The notes below the pieces were generated by a model that worked only from the letters and a program-made list of their open reading frames with translations, was not told where the DNA came from and did no database searches. From a virus, in the IMG/VR virus record IMGVR_UViG_3300042891_001383, positions 1 through 31,324 of that record: a DNA stretch of 31,324 bases. The stretch is one strand, 5' to 3'. How positions within the stretch are numbered: position 1 is the stretch's first letter; each line of letters starts with the position of its first letter. A program made the translations under genes and the position numbers. Shown one piece after another: positions 1,839 through 28,246 of the stretch.

Positions 1839-3500
1839 TTAAAGAGTTTCTAATCCTCTTACGTATACTTTACCGTAGAACTCAGGACGAACCACTTTCT
1901 TCGCGTAACGTGTCATAACACCTTTACGTGGAGTGAAGTTAACTGGATCATATACAAGTGGAGTCATGATCAACGGAATATAAGGGCTAAATACAGCACC
2001 TGTTTCAAGGAATTGACTTCCTCTGAATCCCATTAGGATAATGTTCTCTTTCATGTATGGGTTTTTGTATACAGTGTATCGGTTATTAATTGCACCAATT
2101 TTTTGAACACCAGCAGCAAATTCTAATTTAGTTCCATCTGTATCAGCAGCGAATCCTGGGATAGACTCAAGGATAGTTGCTACTGCAGGAGATGTAACTA
2201 AGAAGTTAGCACCACCACGTAATGTTTTTTGGTGAATTTTATTAGATACTTTTTGAAGTTTTGTACCTAAAGTTTGGAACCATCCACCTTGAGTGTTATA
2301 GAATCCACCATTAGTTACAGTTTGAGCTGTAAAGTTAGATCCGGTCCAAATTTCATTGTTAACTGCTGACCAATACTCAGTTGTAGGAGCTGCAGAGATC
2401 AACATATCAAGGATTTCAAGATCGATTTCCATTGATACATACTCAGAAAGCATTGAAGTCAATTCAGCTTCAGCATCAATTGAGTGGTAAGCGTTCAAAT
2501 CTTGAGCAAACTCAGGTGTCCAAACTGCTTTCAATTTACGTGTTTTAGCAACAATCGGCTCTGATTGAAGTTCCAAGTTCAATTCTGGGATATCAATATC
2601 TGTACCGTTGTTAATACCTAAATTAGTACCAGATCCTTTGAATGGATTGTTATCTTCAAAATCACCTCTAGTAATATCCGTAGGTTGTTTGCTATATGTT
2701 ACAGTATATCCTGCAGTTCCACTTAATCCTAATGCACCAGATACGAAAAATTCAATCTTACCCGTTGATACATTGAATTTAGTAAATGCTGGAACAACGT
2801 TTGCTGCTGTATAATTAGAACCAGATGCAATTGTAAATGATCTAACTGCAGTCAAATCTGGATTAGTTAATGAAGCTGTACTTACGTAAATAACTGAGTA
2901 ACTAGCTAAAGCGTTGGTATATGCAGAATCAAAATTAACTGACCCAGATCCGGCACTAACTGCTGAAGCAGTTGTTGCAGCTACTCCTGTTGCAGTTGCG
3001 TCATTGATTGAATAACCAAAACGACCTGCTCCATAAAGACCTCCTGTCGGATCATCAGATGTATTAGTTACACCAAATAATGAATCATCAGACTCAGGCG
3101 AAGCAAATGGATGACCTGAAGTAGATACTGGATCTGTGTTATCATCATTAAATCCTGGTTGAGCTGTACCATATTTAAAGTCTAAATAAAATACTAGACC
3201 TGATGGCAAGTTCATTGGTTGAACTGATACGAATTCTTTTGCAGCAAATTCAGCAAAGATACGACGTACCAATGGAAGTGCTACACCAGCCCACTCTTCA
3301 GATCCTTCTGCTGTACCTGTTTGTGAAGCTTCTTTTACTAATTGTCTTGCTTGGTTTTCAAGCAATTGAGCCATACCTGCTCTTTCTGTCTCATTTCTAA
3401 GACCTTCTAAAAGTCCCGTTCTTTCCCACTTTGCAACTGTTGCTACTGATGCAGCACGTTGAGAAGCGTCTGGACTTTGTAATAATGAATTTAAACTCAT
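1839..3500 (-). CDS. 23: Major capsid protein (T4 gp23-like)
   Basis: A 553-residue major head protein that forms the hexamers of the T4-like shell after scaffold-directed assembly and proteolysis. The diagnostic gp23 block lies near residues 45-110: LLENQARQLVKEASQTGT, then WAGVALPLVRRIFAEFAAKE and FVSVQPMNLPSGLVFYLDFK. The C-terminal half keeps the conserved series around VAKTRKLKAVWTPEFAQDL and the ending YGKVYVRGLETL. Between about residues 110 and 295 is a long Ser/Thr/Gly/Asp-rich stretch that resembles the variable surface insertion region. In T4, gp21 removes an N-terminal segment; here VKE at about residues 56-58, just before ASQTGT, is a candidate cleavage site by position. A strong Shine-Dalgarno (AAAGGAG, 3509-3515) precedes the ATG. 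The gene follows gp22 by 31 nt and ends in a terminator. Confidence 0.97.
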   Translation of the reverse strand: MSLNSLLQSPDASQRAASVATVAKWERTGLLEGLRNETERAGMAQLLENQARQLVKEASQTGTAEGSEEWAGVALPLVRRIFAEFAAKEFVSVQPMNLPSGLVFYLDFKYGTAQPGFNDDNTDPVSTSGHPFASPESDDSLFGVTNTSDDPTGGLYGAGRFGYSINDATATGVAATTASAVSAGSGSVNFDSAYTNALASYSVIYVSTASLTNPDLTAVRSFTIASGSNYTAANVVPAFTKFNVSTGKIEFFVSGALGLSGTAGYTVTYSKQPTDITRGDFEDNNPFKGSGTNLGINNGTDIDIPELNLELQSEPIVAKTRKLKAVWTPEFAQDLNAYHSIDAEAELTSMLSEYVSMEIDLEILDMLISAAPTTEYWSAVNNEIWTGSNFTAQTVTNGGFYNTQGGWFQTLGTKLQKVSNKIHQKTLRGGANFLVTSPAVATILESIPGFAADTDGTKLEFAAGVQKIGAINNRYTVYKNPYMKENIILMGFRGSQFLETGAVFSPYIPLIMTPLVYDPVNFTPRKGVMTRYAKKVVRPEFYGKVYVRGLETL

Positions 3501-3508
3501 CGTTTGTT

Positions 3509-3515
3509 CTCCTTT
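3509..3515 (-). promoter_or_regulatory. Strong Shine-Dalgarno of the major capsid gene
   Basis: AAAGGAG on the coding strand, with 8 nt to the ATG at 3500. It is near-perfect in a genome region where many genes have no Shine-Dalgarno sequence. Confidence 0.85.
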
Positions 3516-3531: not shown

Positions 3532-4545
3532 TTAAATTAATCCTGCCAATTTCTTCCAACGGTTTGCCATTTCGAAACCTTCTGAAAGAATTTGTGTTGT
3601 TTGTTGCGATGGAGCAGTGGTTCTTGTTGGACGAGAAGCCGCTGATTCTTTTACCATCTTTCTTTTTTGTGTTGGTTTGTTAAAGCTTTCTGCCAATGTA
3701 GCAAATACTAATTTTGCTTCTCTAGGCGATATGGCTCTATCAAAATTTTCAATAACTTTCATTTTTTGACCTTCGTTCAAGTCAAAGTTACGGAACAACT
3801 TGTTAGTGTAAAGAAGTTTTGCATTAAGAAGATTTACTTCATTGATAACAGATTTAAGATGTTTAACGGTGCGATATGCTTCCATTAATGCTTCATCTTT
3901 TTCTTCTACTTGAGCTTCTAGTGCTGCAACCTTTTCAGATTCATCACCCATTTCAGCAACCATTCCTTCTTCTTCTGCTAGAATTGCTTCAATGATTTTA
4001 TTAATGTCATCACCGTCTGCATCATCTTGTTCATACATACCTTCCATTGGCATTTCATCTTCCGGCATTTCATTTTCATTATATGAACCTTCATGATACA
4101 TACCTTCTGTCTCTAGCTCTTCAGATCCCATTTCTAATTCTTCTAGAATTTCTTCTAAATTAAGATCATCTTCTTCTGCACCAACTTCCATTTCCTCTGC
4201 ACCAGCTTCCATTTCTTCTGCACCTCCGCCTAGGCCCAAATCGCCTTCATAATCATAGCTACCATCGTTGTCATAATCAACACCGATACCTAACATATCA
4301 GGCATATCGCCACCCATTTCCTCTGCACCAGCTTCCATGTCTGCTGCTCCTGCTTCTACATCTTCTGCACCAGCTTCTAACTCATCTTCTGCACCTTCGA
4401 TTTCTAATCGTAGTTGATTCATAAGACGATTTTCAAGTCTAGGAGCGAATGCTTCTTGTAGTGCAAGTTTTGCGTTTGCTAATGCTGTTTCTTTAACTGC
4501 TTTAGCATCTGCGATTGCTTGTTTTAGCAAATCAGATTTTGCCAT
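3532..4545 (-). CDS. 22: Prohead core/scaffold protein (T4 gp22-like)
   Basis: A 337-residue, very acidic protein placed directly before gp23, as T4 gene 22 is. Residues 1-50 form a helix. Residues 50-190 are dominated by Glu/Asp/Met/Gly repeats of the type EAGAEE or EVGAEE, with several copies. Residues 190-290 form a coiled coil with a conserved-looking core INEVNLLNAKLLYTNKLF. The tail is basic and Ser/Thr-rich with several L-x-E type sites (LAE, ILSE), which in T4 are the gp21 cleavage consensus. Scaffolds of this type fill the prohead and are degraded during maturation. The repetitive acidic middle is unusually long. The start is set by AAGGAG 7 nt upstream. It has its own transcription unit: a terminator and a motif copy separate it from bS21. 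Confidence 0.88.
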   Translation of the reverse strand: MAKSDLLKQAIADAKAVKETALANAKLALQEAFAPRLENRLMNQLRLEIEGAEDELEAGAEDVEAGAADMEAGAEEMGGDMPDMLGIGVDYDNDGSYDYEGDLGLGGGAEEMEAGAEEMEVGAEEDDLNLEEILEELEMGSEELETEGMYHEGSYNENEMPEDEMPMEGMYEQDDADGDDINKIIEAILAEEEGMVAEMGDESEKVAALEAQVEEKDEALMEAYRTVKHLKSVINEVNLLNAKLLYTNKLFRNFDLNEGQKMKVIENFDRAISPREAKLVFATLAESFNKPTQKRKMVKESAASRPTRTTAPSQQTTQILSEGFEMANRWKKLAGLI

Positions 4546-4552
4546 ACTAATT

Positions 4553-4558
4553 CTCCTT
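4553..4558 (-). promoter_or_regulatory. Strong Shine-Dalgarno of the scaffold gene
   Basis: AAGGAG on the coding strand, 7 nt before the ATG at 4545. Confidence 0.85.
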
Positions 4559-4618: not shown

Positions 4619-4643
4619 ACGCTATATAAAGAAAGAATAGCGT
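4619..4643 (-). other. Inverted repeat in the leader of the scaffold gene
   Basis: Seven-base arms (ACGCTAT / ATAGCGT) separated by an 11-nt loop. No T-run follows on the coding strand, so it does not look like a terminator. If transcription begins near the motif at 4653-4660, this would be a hairpin near the 5' end of the gp22-gp23 message and could stabilise it. Confidence 0.4.
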
Positions 4644-4681: not shown

Positions 4682-4712
4682 AAAAAAGCCCTAACTTTTT
4701 AGGCTAGGGCTT
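4682..4712 (-). terminator. Rho-independent terminator after bS21
   Basis: On the coding strand, AAGCCCTA and TAGGGCTT form an 8-bp stem around an 11-nt loop, with the second arm running into a T tract. It begins about 20 nt after the bS21 stop codon and separates the gp20-to-bS21 unit from the scaffold and capsid genes. Confidence 0.88.
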
Positions 4713-4732: not shown

Positions 4733-4978
4733 TTAATCTCTATGTAAATCTTTAATTTTTTGAATATACTTTGCGTCAATTAATTGTTTTCTACGTTTAA
4801 CACTAGGTTTAATAAAAGTTTTATTGTCTTTAATTTTTTCTAAAACTCCTGCAGATTTTACTTTTCTTTTAAAAATTTTCATTGCGTGTGCAAAATCTTC
4901 TCGTGTCGTTCCTACTACATTTACTGCCGTAGCGTGGCCTGGTACAATTGCTTTGTGTTGTTTTTGTTTTTTACTCAT
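4733..4978 (-). CDS. rpsU: Phage-encoded ribosomal protein bS21
   Basis: An 81-residue basic protein whose residues 18-78 match ribosomal protein bS21: REDFAHAMKIFKRKVKSAGV aligns with the 'ALRRFKR.CEKAGV' core, and FIKPSVKRR with the 'F.KP...R' block. The ending, with DAKYIQKIKD, is closer to Bacteroidota bS21 than to the Arg-rich enterobacterial tail. It carries about 15 extra N-terminal residues, rich in Lys and His. bS21 binds the small subunit near the 3' end of 16S rRNA; in Bacteroidota it helps hold the anti-Shine-Dalgarno away from mRNA (established knowledge). The gene follows its neighbour by 11 nt, has no Shine-Dalgarno of its own (the leader is A/T only) and is followed by a terminator. 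A virion role is not excluded, but host ribosome modification is the simplest reading. Confidence 0.9.
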   Translation of the reverse strand: MSKKQKQHKAIVPGHATAVNVVGTTREDFAHAMKIFKRKVKSAGVLEKIKDNKTFIKPSVKRRKQLIDAKYIQKIKDLHRD

Positions 4979-4989
4979 TATAATTGTTT

Positions 4990-5505
4990 TTAAATTTTTC
5001 GCATAGGGCGTTTTGATGCAGCAGGTGGTAATTCTCTAGAAGGATTTGCTTCTCCTCTTACTCGAAATCTAAATGCTGCTAATTCTAAACGTTGTGCAAA
5101 ATATCCTTGAATGCGTTGTGCATCCTTTTCTGGATCTTCACCTAATCTAAAATAGAAATATCCATTCTTACCATTTTTAGATACCGTACGTTTAATTATA
5201 GTAAAACCTTTTTTTTCAGCCCATTGTTTGATGTCATCAGAAACATCTCGAGCTTGAGATGGATCTTTAATTGCATATTCTACGCCGCCTTGGTATTCAT
5301 CAATACCGTTAACGAGTTTAGCTTCATCAACAATTTCTTCATCTATTGCTTTGTTGATAGCAGTTCTTCGTTTTTTTAGATATGAATCTGTTTTATCGGT
5401 TTTGCCATCATTATTAATATCAGAGTCTTCTTTACCAACAGTATCCATTTTAGATTCCGTTAAACCAAAAAAGTCTCTATATAATTTTTTAAATGTATTC
5501 ATCAT
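4990..5505 (-). CDS. Head-region protein with EF-hand-like loop, unknown function
   Basis: A 171-residue protein not assigned to a named family. Residues 1-20 (MMNTFKKLYRDFFGLTESK) form an amphipathic segment ending in L-T-E, which resembles a T4 capsid-targeting sequence with a gp21 cleavage site. Next comes DINNDGKTDKTD (about 29-40), a calcium-loop pattern like an EF-hand or dockerin loop. The C-terminal half is mixed alpha/beta with FAQRLELAAFRFRVRG and ends in a basic proline-rich tail. AAAGG lies 5 nt before the first of two adjacent ATG codons, so either could be used. Its place among prohead genes suggests a core or internal head protein. That role is inference. Confidence 0.75.
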   Translation of the reverse strand: MMNTFKKLYRDFFGLTESKMDTVGKEDSDINNDGKTDKTDSYLKKRRTAINKAIDEEIVDEAKLVNGIDEYQGGVEYAIKDPSQARDVSDDIKQWAEKKGFTIIKRTVSKNGKNGYFYFRLGEDPEKDAQRIQGYFAQRLELAAFRFRVRGEANPSRELPPAASKRPMRKI

Positions 5506-5545: not shown

Positions 5546-5962
5546 TTAACGAACTTCATAATATTTACTTAATCCTTCTCGGATATCGTCACATGCTGCT
5601 TCCATTCTGCGTTCATGAATCATTACTTCATTTGCACATTTTTGCATTTCAGTTAATGCTTTATTTACATAATCCATATGACGTTTTGCAGCAACTTTTT
5701 CTACCATATCCTCATCTGATTCTTGAATCATACGATTTGCAGTCTCAACCATTTTAGTTATTTTTGATACAGCTTCTTCTAAACGTTGACCTCTTGCACG
5801 TAATGTTTCTGCCATTGCAGAAAATGATCCTAAGTTTGCAGCAAGTGATTTTTTATCTTCTATAGATAATGGAGCTTCTTTTTGACTAAACACTGTTTCT
5901 TTATTCAGATTCATATCTCGTTCGTACAATAAGTCACGTAATGTTTGTAATTTGCTTTTCAT
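5546..5962 (-). CDS. Helical protein in the prohead gene cluster, unknown function
   Basis: A 138-residue protein predicted to be almost entirely alpha-helical, with Ala/Glu/Lys/Met-rich heptad-like stretches through residues 40-130 (for example MAETLRARGQRLEEAVSKIT). It has no signal peptide, membrane segment or catalytic motif. TAGGAT lies 7-12 nt upstream. The gene starts 3 nt after the prohead protease stop and is probably translationally coupled to it. Position and composition fit a prohead core or assembly factor comparable to the small core genes of T4, but I could not identify a counterpart. Confidence 0.75.
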   Translation of the reverse strand: MKSKLQTLRDLLYERDMNLNKETVFSQKEAPLSIEDKKSLAANLGSFSAMAETLRARGQRLEEAVSKITKMVETANRMIQESDEDMVEKVAAKRHMDYVNKALTEMQKCANEVMIHERRMEAACDDIREGLSKYYEVR

Positions 5963-5965
5963 ATT

Positions 5966-6595
5966 TTATATCCTACATTTACCATCTTCACATAATATCG
6001 ACGTAATAATACTATTTACGCCAGCATATTTGTTTGTTGTTATATTTTTATTTACCGATTCATTCATACCCGTAGGGCGCATAAAAGCACCATGAGTTGA
6101 AGGATTAGATACAAAGTCCCAACAAATCAATTCAAAATCTTCTTGTACTTCTACTACGCCTTCATTTCGTAATTCTTTAACTGACCCCATACCTCTACTA
6201 GAAATGCCCAATGTAATACCTGCTTTAAAAAGTGACTTTAAAATATTACCTGACGGTGTATCTAGTATTTGTACTGCTCCACACAAATCATTTCCTTTCC
6301 ACCATATCTTTAAAACATTATGAGAAACATTGTTTAAATTAACTACAGATGATTCTGGATGATCTAATTCTCCTAATGCTCTATGTTGATCAATATATTC
6401 TGTTTGATATCGTTTACATTCTCTTTCTAGAATATGTTTTGGATAAACTCTACCGTTTTGATTTTTTGCTCCAGCTCGTTGCAATACACCTTGAACAACA
6501 ACACCGCCCGGGATGCCATATGCTGCTCCAGATTGTTCGGTTAATGTACCGACAGGTTTAAATGGTATATATTCTACGATTAACTGCTTTGACAT
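5966..6595 (-). CDS. 21: Prohead core protease (T4 gp21-like)
   Basis: A 209-residue prohead serine protease of the T4 gp21 type (herpesvirus-assemblin-like fold). It cleaves scaffold and capsid precursors after L/I-x-E sites inside the prohead. The visible catalytic pieces are His79 in ELDHPES, Ser132 or Ser133 in GISSRGMG, and the DFVSNPST block with Asp160 near the end of the core. GRVYPKHIL near residue 50 is also typical. A G-T-L-T-E site at 16-20 and the C-terminal tail could be self-cleavage points. AGGAG lies 6 nt before the start. It overlaps no neighbour but is tightly packed, with a 1-nt gap from the preceding gene. Confidence 0.93.
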   Translation of the reverse strand: MSKQLIVEYIPFKPVGTLTEQSGAAYGIPGGVVVQGVLQRAGAKNQNGRVYPKHILERECKRYQTEYIDQHRALGELDHPESSVVNLNNVSHNVLKIWWKGNDLCGAVQILDTPSGNILKSLFKAGITLGISSRGMGSVKELRNEGVVEVQEDFELICWDFVSNPSTHGAFMRPTGMNESVNKNITTNKYAGVNSIITSILCEDGKCRI

Positions 6596-6596
6596 A

Positions 6597-7319
6597 TTAT
6601 TCTCCTAATGCTCTTACTCGTTCTGAAATTTTTATTAATCGTTCTGATATTTTAGTTAATGCACTATCTACAGATTTTCCATATCCTTCTCGAGCTATTC
6701 CAGCTTCCGTTTTTAATCTAGCTGTATTTGCTACAAGTTCTTCAACTTCTCGTAATCTTTTAGCTACTTCTTTAATAGTATATTTTATTTTACTAGAAGG
6801 TTTATCATCTCCTTTTTTAAAGTTACGATATGATTCTATAAGTTGTTCGTATTTGGAATCCATAGTTTCATATACATTTTTATCTGTTTTATTTTTTACT
6901 CCAGACCAATCATATTCAACTTGCGATTTTTCTGACATATGTGCCGATCGATCTGAATATTTTTTATATGATTTAGCATAAGGAACTGACGGATATTCGT
7001 ATTTTTTATGTTGCCATTTTGCGTCATCATCAGCAAATAGAAATTTATCTACATATTCTTCTTCATCAGATTCTGGTTTTTGATATTTTCCAATTTGATA
7101 TGTAGGAGGTGTATTAACAGATTCTTTAACGGGTTGCATTCCGCCTTGCGTGATAGTATTTTTATTTACTTTACCGATAAAGTTTTTAGACATATATGCA
7201 CCTGCACCGCCAGAAGTAGATGCTTCTTCTAATTCATCATTTGCAATATCATCAACAATTTCATCAGTTTTATCGACAGCTTCAAATGCTTCTTCTATTT
7301 GTTGTAAGAATGTTTTCAT
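6597..7319 (-). CDS. Probable internal head/core protein with capsid-targeting-like N-terminus
   Basis: A 240-residue hydrophilic protein, unrecognised by family. The start MKTFLQQIEEAFEA closely resembles the T4 capsid-targeting sequence of internal proteins (MKTYQEFIAE), with I-E-E placed where gp21 would cut. An acidic patch follows (DEIVDDIANDELEEA), then a Tyr/Lys/Asp-rich middle and a C-terminal coiled coil from about residue 165 to the end. It lies between portal and protease, where T4 encodes the core proteins gp67 and gp68. The ATG overlaps the preceding stop (ATGA), which suggests coupled translation. A prohead core or packaged internal role is inferred from N-terminus and position. 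Confidence 0.78.
   Translation of the reverse strand: MKTFLQQIEEAFEAVDKTDEIVDDIANDELEEASTSGGAGAYMSKNFIGKVNKNTITQGGMQPVKESVNTPPTYQIGKYQKPESDEEEYVDKFLFADDDAKWQHKKYEYPSVPYAKSYKKYSDRSAHMSEKSQVEYDWSGVKNKTDKNVYETMDSKYEQLIESYRNFKKGDDKPSSKIKYTIKEVAKRLREVEELVANTARLKTEAGIAREGYGKSVDSALTKISERLIKISERVRALGE
6602..6606 (-). promoter_or_regulatory. Shine-Dalgarno of the prohead protease gene
   Basis: AGGAG on the coding strand, 6 nt before the ATG at 6595. It lies inside the end of the preceding gene. Confidence 0.8.
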
Positions 7320-26084: not shown

Positions 26085-26630
26085 TTACCAATCTACTAAT
26101 ACCATCTTTCCATTCCAAAGCATCATGTTACTAGAGCTAAAATCTAAATCTAAATCAAATTCATCAATTCCTGTTTTTTGTACATCTCGTTGTAAAGCTC
26201 GTAAGAAATTAACAAGTTTAACATCTGTATCACGAGCACCATCTGCATCTAAAAAATCAAATATCGAAACTTCACCGCCTTCAGCTCTAGCAAAATCTCC
26301 ATATCGTTTCATGAATTCATCTACCGTTTGTTTAATATTATCCGGCAGTGGTTCTGCATTTGCCATGATAAACATATGTTCTCGATCATTAACATAATAT
26401 ACTGGAATAAATGTAGTAAATTCATTCCAACGACCAGCAATCACTTTAGCTACTTCATACTCATCTCGTTCCGTAGTAACTTTAAAAACTTTGTCTTCAC
26501 CGTCAATTTCATATACTCGAGCATTATCGCCACTACCTATGAATCGAAATTGTTTATTTTTAATTTTATCAAGCAAACGATCAATTTCTTTTTCAGATAA
26601 TTCTCGTAAAAGTTGTTTTAATCGTATCAT
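26085..26630 (-). CDS. Compact protein-kinase-like protein
   Basis: A 181-residue protein with the hallmarks of a minimal kinase fold. FIGSGDNARVYEI (30-42) is a glycine-rich loop, VFKV holds the candidate ATP-binding lysine K50, and HMFIMANAEPLP (85-96) looks like a hinge. LDLDFSSSNMML (160-171) matches the catalytic-loop pattern D-x4-N (D163, N168), and MVLVDW ends with D180 in the place of the DFG aspartate. The chain stops right after it, so there is no activation segment or C-terminal lobe, as in small APH- or HipA-like phage kinases. Residues 1-12 (MIRLKQLLRELSE) resemble a capsid-targeting leader. The start overlaps the preceding stop by ATGA. Activity is not proven by sequence. Confidence 0.68.
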   Translation of the reverse strand: MIRLKQLLRELSEKEIDRLLDKIKNKQFRFIGSGDNARVYEIDGEDKVFKVTTERDEYEVAKVIAGRWNEFTTFIPVYYVNDREHMFIMANAEPLPDNIKQTVDEFMKRYGDFARAEGGEVSIFDFLDADGARDTDVKLVNFLRALQRDVQKTGIDEFDLDLDFSSSNMMLWNGKMVLVDW

Positions 26631-28246
26631 GATATATTCCTATCTAAATCTATTCTTATTAAAAAATTCATATCAACATCTGGTCTTTTACGTACTGGCT
26701 GTGCTAATTTACCAATTGCTAAAAGTTGACCTAAATTATCATATAAACCAATTGTAGTTATATATGGTGCAAATGCACTTCCGGTAGCAAATGATTTATA
26801 TGTTACATCATCATCTGCAGTTAAAGAGAGATTTGATGACATATTAAAATCTCCAGAATCAACTTTTGCAGTTACGCCCATTTCATAAATAGTTTTAGTA
26901 CTGCGATATGAAGCAGTATATGGTAAATTAATTATATCATCATATCGATAATCTGGACTAGATACAACTGCAATTCCTTGTTTAGCAAATATATTACCTA
27001 TATGATTTGTTTGCATCATAGTACCACCTTCGGTTCTATCTGCTAAATAACCTACTTGAGTTGAAGTTAATGATTTATTATAAATTCTAATTTCATCTAA
27101 TACACCCGTTAAATTCAATTCAGATTCAAATCCTCCGATGTATAATAGTCCTGTATTGTCAATACGAGCTGATGCAGTAAATGGAGAATTTGTATCAACA
27201 AGCAATACAGCTGACGCAGATGCATGAAGTGTACCATTAACATACATTTGCAAATTACTTCCGGATTTTTGACATACAACATGAGTCCATGCAGTTGTAG
27301 TTGCAGATGATGTAATTTGTGTTTTAAACGAAGTGCTACCAGCTGCAGAAAATACAATTTGATTGCTACCACTTAATTCAATACGAAACGGATATTGTGG
27401 TGTTAATGAGCTAGAAGCTTTTGTTGCAACAATCTTATTTACGCCGGTATTTGATGCTGAGATAAAAAATGAAATTGCATAATCATGATTTCTATCATAT
27501 AAACCATCTAATGTAGATTTAATATAACCAGTTCCATCAAATTTTGCAGCATATCCTATAGGACCTTGATATCCTGTTGTTGTAGTAACGCCTGATATAT
27601 AAGTAATACCTGCAGCCGTGTAAGTAATTCGATTAGTATCAAAATATTCATTGAAACCTTCATACCATTTAGTTTGAGTTACAATTGATGCAGTATTAAC
27701 AGATGCATCATATAAATTACCATACCGATCTGATTTGATATACAATGGAACATTAATGTTGTATGAACCTGTTCCGTAATATGCTGCACCATATACACTA
27801 CCTGAACTAAAACTTGCTGTTAACAAAAATGAAGTTGGTTTAATTCCTTCCCCTATTCGTACTTGCGGAAATGAAAGTATTGATGCTGATTGATATAAAA
27901 ATTTATTCGTACGCGTTAAATCAGTGGGACCATATGTTTTCATAGGTTCTGATTTATGTTTATAAAATAAATGATTAACAGAAAAATATGTTAGTGTTTG
28001 CAACGTTCCGTCAATATTAGACGCATCATTATATGTTAATGTTGTCCCTAATGCTGGTAACGTGTTAACATTTGAATAAATAGCTTGTAACGGCAATGCA
28101 CTAGAAGTTGCACTACCAGATATAACAATCCAAGATTTATAAGTTTGAAATGGATTAACTTTTACATCGGTTGAATCAATCCGTTTAAAGACTGTTGGAT
28201 ACACCCCAGTATAAGTATCTTGTTCTTGTATTTTTGATTCTGCCAT
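26627..28246 (-). CDS. Tail adhesin with LamG-like lectin domain
   Basis: A 539-residue structural protein. Residues about 232-403 form a concanavalin A/LamG-like jelly-roll: AAKFDGTGYI, YAISFFISAS, WTHVVCQKSGSNLQMYVNG, and the classic end LDEIRIYNKSLTSTQV. Such domains bind sugars or surface glycans, so this is a candidate receptor-binding protein. The last 90 residues share a module with the 427-residue protein encoded next upstream ([PT]YITT[IV]GLY and LLA[IV][GA]KL followed by LIR[IV][KD]LD). The terminator/motif element at 28253-28283 lies before it. The stop overlaps the kinase-like gene. Confidence 0.87.
   Translation of the reverse strand: MAESKIQEQDTYTGVYPTVFKRIDSTDVKVNPFQTYKSWIVISGSATSSALPLQAIYSNVNTLPALGTTLTYNDASNIDGTLQTLTYFSVNHLFYKHKSEPMKTYGPTDLTRTNKFLYQSASILSFPQVRIGEGIKPTSFLLTASFSSGSVYGAAYYGTGSYNINVPLYIKSDRYGNLYDASVNTASIVTQTKWYEGFNEYFDTNRITYTAAGITYISGVTTTTGYQGPIGYAAKFDGTGYIKSTLDGLYDRNHDYAISFFISASNTGVNKIVATKASSSLTPQYPFRIELSGSNQIVFSAAGSTSFKTQITSSATTTAWTHVVCQKSGSNLQMYVNGTLHASASAVLLVDTNSPFTASARIDNTGLLYIGGFESELNLTGVLDEIRIYNKSLTSTQVGYLADRTEGGTMMQTNHIGNIFAKQGIAVVSSPDYRYDDIINLPYTASYRSTKTIYEMGVTAKVDSGDFNMSSNLSLTADDDVTYKSFATGSAFAPYITTIGLYDNLGQLLAIGKLAQPVRKRPDVDMNFLIRIDLDRNIS

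Follow-up and report, generated by a model that had tools for sequence, protein, structure and literature searches.

bS21 is the commonest ribosomal protein encoded by phages, and its purpose there is unproven. To our knowledge, Bacteroidota are the one bacterial group in which bS21 is known to control the reading of Shine-Dalgarno (SD) motifs.

In Flavobacterium johnsoniae, Tyr54 of bS21 stacks on A1534, adjoining the anti-SD, and has been called uniquely conserved in Bacteroidia; ribosomes of this organism without bS21, or with a C-terminally truncated or Y54A bS21, translate SD-bearing messages better (PMC9976891). Among phages, bS21 genes located beside head genes in Bacteroidetes phages have already been published together with a model of late-stage ribosome takeover (Chen et al. 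2022, PMC9723584), and the same study places the N-terminal helix of bS21 over the anti-SD. Incorporation of a phage bS21 into ribosomes is also on record, that of Pelagibacter phage HTVC008M entering E. coli 70S ribosomes (PMC6375957), as are the N-terminal extensions of the rpS21 of huge phages (Al-Shayeb et al. 2020, PMC7162821).

The locus presented here comes from a 31-kb IMG/VR virus record (IMGVR_UViG_3300042891_001383), and the whole stretch analysed, 31,324 nucleotides, is referred to as the window. Its bS21 is like that of Chen et al. in standing beside TerL, portal, protease and major capsid protein (MCP) genes, in the aromatic residue at the Tyr54 position, in its similarity to Bacteroidetes bS21 and in the late redirection of host translation proposed for it. 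However, the gene of Chen et al. is on the opposite strand, whereas the window bS21 and its close relatives are on the strand of the head genes. The opposite-strand relatives found here have no extension and no SD use, while the window bS21 is extended, ends the protease unit and goes with SD use.

A basic N-terminal extension is shared with the huge-phage rpS21, but in the accessible part of that source SD prediction is tied to rpS1 and not to rpS21, and the MSKKQKQH..VPG family and its SD link are not described. HTVC008M, a phage of the SAR11 host lineage, likewise encodes a bS21. F. johnsoniae host bS21 (PDB code 7jil) has the same core region and Tyr54; Flavobacterium-type host bS21 nevertheless differs from the phage protein in its autoregulatory SD of -16 to -17 kcal/mol, the lack of an extension and other residues at positions 14, 18, 23, 24 and 30.

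By MCP and TerL, the cultured phages closest to the window are immuto of Flavobacterium (NC_055915) and Mel-JY01 of Microcystis (PP395634), and both have a similar head-gene order. Unlike the window, immuto is without bS21 and without SD motifs, and Mel-JY01 has a bS21 with no aromatic residue at the Tyr54 site, with SD use present. Judged by its sequence, the window bS21 is a distinct variant, characterized by location on the strand of the head genes, the MSKKQKQH..VPG extension, the Bacteroidia-type Tyr71 and the lack of an autoregulatory SD. No tie between phage bS21 and SD use was found in searches of the full text of open-licence papers.

The bS21 gene, its neighbours and its extension

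The record belongs to a T4-type myovirus, presumably of aquatic bacteria; it encodes a capsid protein of the gp23 type and a protease of the gp21 type, together with portal, terminase and PhoH. In the order of transcription the window contains the portal, a 284-aa and a 240-aa protein, the protease, a 138-aa and a 171-aa protein, bS21, a terminator, a 337-aa scaffold-like protein, the capsid protein, a 91-aa protein and PhoH. The relatives share this order and strand (TerL-portal-h284-h240-protease-h138-h171-bS21-scaffold-MCP-h91-PhoH).

1839..3500, minus strand: major capsid protein gp23 (MCP), PF07068, E=2.2e-74
3532..4545, minus strand: putative scaffold (gp22-like), 337 aa, an acidic protein between the protease unit and MCP
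4733..4978, minus strand: bS21 gene, 81 aa, PF01165 and TIGR00030, F. johnsoniae bS21 as best solved match
4990..5505, minus strand: conserved 171-aa ORF immediately before bS21, position kept in relatives
5546..5962, minus strand: conserved 138-aa ORF between the protease and the 171-aa ORF, position kept in relatives
5966..6595, minus strand: prohead protease gp21, PF03420, E=8.5e-33

The bS21 ORF runs from 4978 to 4733 on the minus strand, the plus-strand frame of the same stretch being full of stops, and its product is MSKKQKQHKAIVPGHATAVNVVGTTREDFAHAMKIFKRKVKSAGVLEKIKDNKTFIKPSVKRRKQLIDAKYIQKIKDLHRD. An earlier note, made from the sequence alone, had identified this product as bS21 and had named a profile search without a match as a possible refutation. 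The identity is borne out by matches above the curated cut-offs to PF01165 (E=1.9e-11, 43.9 bits vs a cut-off of 27) and to TIGR00030 of NCBIfam (36.3 bits vs 28.95), with F. johnsoniae bS21 as the best solved relative (7jil chain z, E=5e-7, 33.2 bits). Relatives of the protein were collected, with 80 kept and 117 confirmed, and since the 80 show conserved gene order and strand, the gene is not a chance ORF. It is under purifying selection, with dN/dS of 0.06–0.42 relative to the window copy. The AlphaFold model (pLDDT 81.6) contains helices at residues 3–10, 26–43, 45–51 and 58–80; a Foldseek search with this model gave no significant match of any kind.

The same note had placed the gene between protease and scaffold. 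It does follow the protease unit and precede the scaffold, but the two small ORFs of 138 and 171 aa intervene after the protease, and the scaffold is named from its position and acidic composition, a profile search with ORF 3532–4545 having given no match. Elsewhere in the window, the large protein encoded at 26627–28246 contains a domain of the concanavalin A-like type (Laminin_G_3) and is a candidate for a tail protein or one that binds the receptor.

4928..4978, minus strand: N-terminal extension, residues 1–17, MSKKQKQHKAIVPGHAT, near-invariant in 30 representatives
4766..4768, minus strand: codon for Tyr71, the equivalent of F. johnsoniae bS21 Tyr54 by alignment

The Lys/His-rich extension noticed earlier comprises about 17 residues. 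Its pattern M[SN]KKQKQH..xVPG is near-invariant among the relatives (30 representatives), with conservation matching any part of the core; the search for relatives used MSKKQKQH as one of its seeds, which bears on this invariance, and relatives retrieved by MCP instead of this seed possess an extension too. In the alignment all same-strand phage bS21 have an extension of 10 residues or more, whereas opposite-strand phage bS21 and the majority of bacterial copies have none. In one locus (L368) a different bS21, unextended and non-aromatic, is encoded at 868–1083, 4 kb upstream of a capsid gene that is without SD.

The C-terminal half had been described as Bacteroidota-like, and the Tyr54 equivalent is indeed kept. 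Among 127 phage copies this site is Tyr in 82, Phe in 19, His in 1, Arg in 24 and Lys in 1 (Y/F/H 102/127, Arg/Lys 25/127), and the A-x-[YF]-x-Q context is retained along with the aromatic residue in most bS21-carrying phages. SD use is still seen with the same-strand copies that have Arg or Lys. Same-strand Arg/Lys copies, those of the L353–L435 group and L083, are possibly adapted to hosts outside Bacteroidia.

In the alignment of phage copies, the residues by which the C-terminal helix touches the ribosome are conserved. In the core, the same 127 copies were compared with 44 Bacteroidota bS21 sequences. Near-complete differences, from Bacteroidota to phage, are Asp24 to Lys (126/127), Arg30 to Glu/Asp and Arg14 to Phe/Tyr; further ones are Arg18 to small residues and Phe23 to Val/Ile/Leu. 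Some Bacteroidota genomes have two rpsU-like genes (L520 and L521 in G214 and G119; also G134 and G053).

Start region, terminator and Shine-Dalgarno motifs

3509..3515, minus strand: SD AAAGGAG of the MCP gene, distance to the ATG 5–10 nt in nearly all relatives, mode 7–9
4553..4558, minus strand: SD AAGGAG of the scaffold gene, reaching -6 kcal/mol or stronger in 99% of 73 relatives
4686..4712, minus strand: intrinsic terminator directly after bS21, hairpin and T run
4979..5003, minus strand: SD-less start region of the bS21 gene, 0/80 relatives with SD
6602..6606, minus strand: SD AGGAG of the protease gene, overlapping the end of the upstream ORF

The autoregulatory SD of the host type is absent from the phage bS21 genes. 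Flavobacterium-type host rpsU has the known extended SD in 80/80 cases at -16 to -17.2 kcal/mol, and the median anti-SD pairing before the gene is -2.3 kcal/mol in the phages vs -17.2 in these hosts.

The terminator starts 20 nt past the bS21 stop codon, which makes bS21 the last gene of the prohead-protease unit. It was found in 35/45 distinct relatives vs 0/45 shuffled controls, and the changes in its stem are compensatory. Since the bS21-less immuto has an intrinsic terminator at the same pre-scaffold junction (L082, 7970–8099), the bS21 gene sits at a transcription boundary. After this terminator of immuto, GenBank annotates a doubtful ORF of 30 residues. In the window, an inverted repeat, ACGCTAT..ATAGCGT (4619–4643), lies after the bS21 terminator and before the scaffold gene and may form a hairpin in the scaffold-capsid leader.

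Within the window a strong, well-placed SD precedes only the capsid, scaffold and protease genes. In the relatives the capsid SD reads AAGGA or AAGGAG and the protease SD reaches -6 kcal/mol or stronger in 100%. Of the 68 families shared within the window clade, 18 consistently have an SD, those with annotation being capsid, scaffold, protease, sheath, tail tube, baseplate hub, GroES, single-strand binding protein (SSB), UvsX and glycosyltransferase; terminase, portal and bS21 never have one. A restriction of SD to head genes was considered and dropped, as UvsX, SSB and GroES carry SD too, and SD use is not late-only because the replication genes UvsX and SSB are among those preceded by it. 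No SD was found at the protease, scaffold or capsid genes of immuto.

Co-variation of Shine-Dalgarno use with the extended bS21

SD use in these phages follows the same-strand, extended bS21, a relation that is new in this analysis. The loci compared were re-sampled by capsid protein, to escape sampling bS21 carriers only, and an SD at the capsid gene was counted at -4 kcal/mol or stronger in loci covering the region from protease to capsid. It was present in 95% of 130 loci with same-strand bS21 vs 9% of 88 bS21-less loci, and in 100% of 30 further bS21-carrying loci in which the region is partly cut. For the tail sheath gene the counts were 12/12 vs 0/7, once loci whose start was cut or ambiguous had been set aside.

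Genome-wide, motifs at gene starts were related to those in a mock window further upstream. This ratio, uncorrected for kinship or host, was 1.5–8.6 in 13 genomes with bS21 vs 0.13–1.12 in nine without, with no overlap; for T4 it was 8.2. Whole-record scans detected no bS21 in immuto or in the bS21-less contigs of 27–297 kb (G012, G013, G015, G016, G431–G433, G436, G438). Most of the genomes compared are fragments, and a simple ORF script served for gene calling, so that start choice may mislead; in L331 and L697 a better start would restore the SD.

The capsid tree contains about six gains or losses of bS21, and the SD at the capsid gene shifts likewise in most of them. Loci L694 and L695 (G435 in the genome comparison), with both bS21 and SD, are nested on this tree among rows without either. 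Sign tests on these switches were not significant, about six independent switches being too few. Exceptions occur in both directions, with no SD at the capsid gene of bS21-carrying L375, L482 and L717, and an SD-like capsid start in the bS21-less group of L414, L423 and L432. The latter three and L416 (G016) form a bS21-less clade with an AAGGA-like motif before the capsid gene, and the genome G016 is not SD-enriched overall.

The presence of bS21 as such was rejected as the correlate, for phages with the opposite-strand, unextended protein show no SD use: among 80 genes the motif was counted at 2 starts vs 1 in the mock window, and their capsid genes have no SD. Nor was SD use seen in the sampled Bacteroidota genomes (20 vs 26 mock of 305 genes). 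This co-variation lends indirect support to the proposal of the earlier note that phage bS21 could alter the choice of messages for translation, and it turns the selection of phage messages into a specific, testable rule, namely an SD motif together with an extended bS21.

Probable host and proposed action on the ribosome

The window clade probably infects Bacteroidota, as supported by Tyr71, by Flavobacterium bS21 being the best solved match and by the sister position of the clade to the relatives of Flavobacterium phage immuto. Since no relative of the window bS21 was found in 84,980 GTDB genomes, there is no link to a host through metagenome-assembled genomes. Comparison of 20 kb of the window with 395 Bacteroidota genomes gave only short A/T-rich CRISPR-like matches; the best one of spacer length (L553) was rejected, as it lies beside a gene in a GC-rich contig, and 1.2 kb of sequence there showed no array. 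The Bacteroidota promoter motif TAnnTTTG was uninformative as a host marker, with no enrichment even in immuto, and a Pfam scan of the relative G001 revealed no Bacteroidota-only domain among the families shown.

Relatives with this bS21 place an SD before the genes of their most abundant virion proteins, a signal to which the likely host group normally pays no heed. The co-variation suggests, short of proof, that the phage retunes the ribosome in favour of its own messages. The reading tentatively preferred here, which we hold to be possible and short of probable, is that the extended bS21, made with the head genes, replaces host bS21 so that SD-bearing phage messages initiate preferentially. 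The setting would be a group of hosts in which the anti-SD is normally kept hidden by the ribosome. The SD-less bS21 message would first be read by unmodified host ribosomes and would escape the SD-based feedback on host bS21. The phage protein, with its Bacteroidia-type C-terminal helix as the anchor, would then take the place of host bS21 on the 30S platform, a step for which the entry of HTVC008M bS21 into E. coli 70S ribosomes provides a precedent (PMC6375957). Finally, the altered helix 1 and the basic extension may leave the 16S 3' tail free for pairing, which would give preferred initiation on the SD-bearing messages of MCP, scaffold, protease, tail sheath and tube, GroES, SSB and UvsX. 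The kept Tyr71 argues against full release, as it predicts continued sequestration of the anti-SD; for release, the altered helix 1 and the extension would need to overcome its effect.

A bolder version, held with less confidence, is that the N-extended bS21 acts as a switch turning SD-blind Bacteroidota ribosomes into SD-reading ones, so that virion messages and other abundant messages of the phage would have SD motifs missing from those of the host, an initiation code private to the phage, with loss of bS21 followed by genome-wide loss of SD. If retuning is true, the phage would be taking over translation through specialised ribosomes and a defined cis signal, and the extended phage bS21 would be a tool for switching on SD reading in Bacteroidota.

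The main rival to ribosome retuning, only slightly less likely in our view, is a switch of host, with bS21-carrying lineages infecting SD-using bacteria, bS21-less lineages infecting SD-blind Bacteroidota, and bS21 merely correlated with host type. It agrees with the 25 of 127 copies that have no aromatic residue, and with SD frequencies of 18–59% in the bS21-carrying genomes, which overlap those of T4 (59%) and HTVC008M (34%). Mel-JY01, which has bS21 and SD but not the aromatic residue, was recorded from Microcystis, so its SD use could be host-driven. However, most bS21-carrying phages keep the Bacteroidia-specific Tyr54 equivalent within A-x-[YF]-x-Q, and the affinities of the window clade and of its bS21 are with Flavobacterium phages and the Flavobacterium protein. 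Nor does a host switch alone account for the joint changes of bS21 and SD at several points of the tree.

It is unlikely that the phage protein only keeps ribosomes complete, through dosage, turnover or evasion of host regulation, with the choice of messages unchanged. Such a role would suit the retained Tyr71 and C-terminal anchor, the missing autoregulatory SD and the purifying selection, but it leaves the near-fixed charge changes of the core, the invariant extension and the SD association unexplained. That the basic protein binds RNA or DNA outside the ribosome or is packaged with the head, as suggested for phage bS21 (PMC9723584), would fit the head-operon location and the basic extension, but is very improbable given the conserved ribosome contacts of the C-terminal helix and an SD association that such a role would not lead one to expect.

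The relative G001 encodes a ClpS-like adaptor together with GroES (L093–L095). Degradation of host bS21 by phages of this kind has been speculated on in print, and a Clp adaptor could have a bearing on it.
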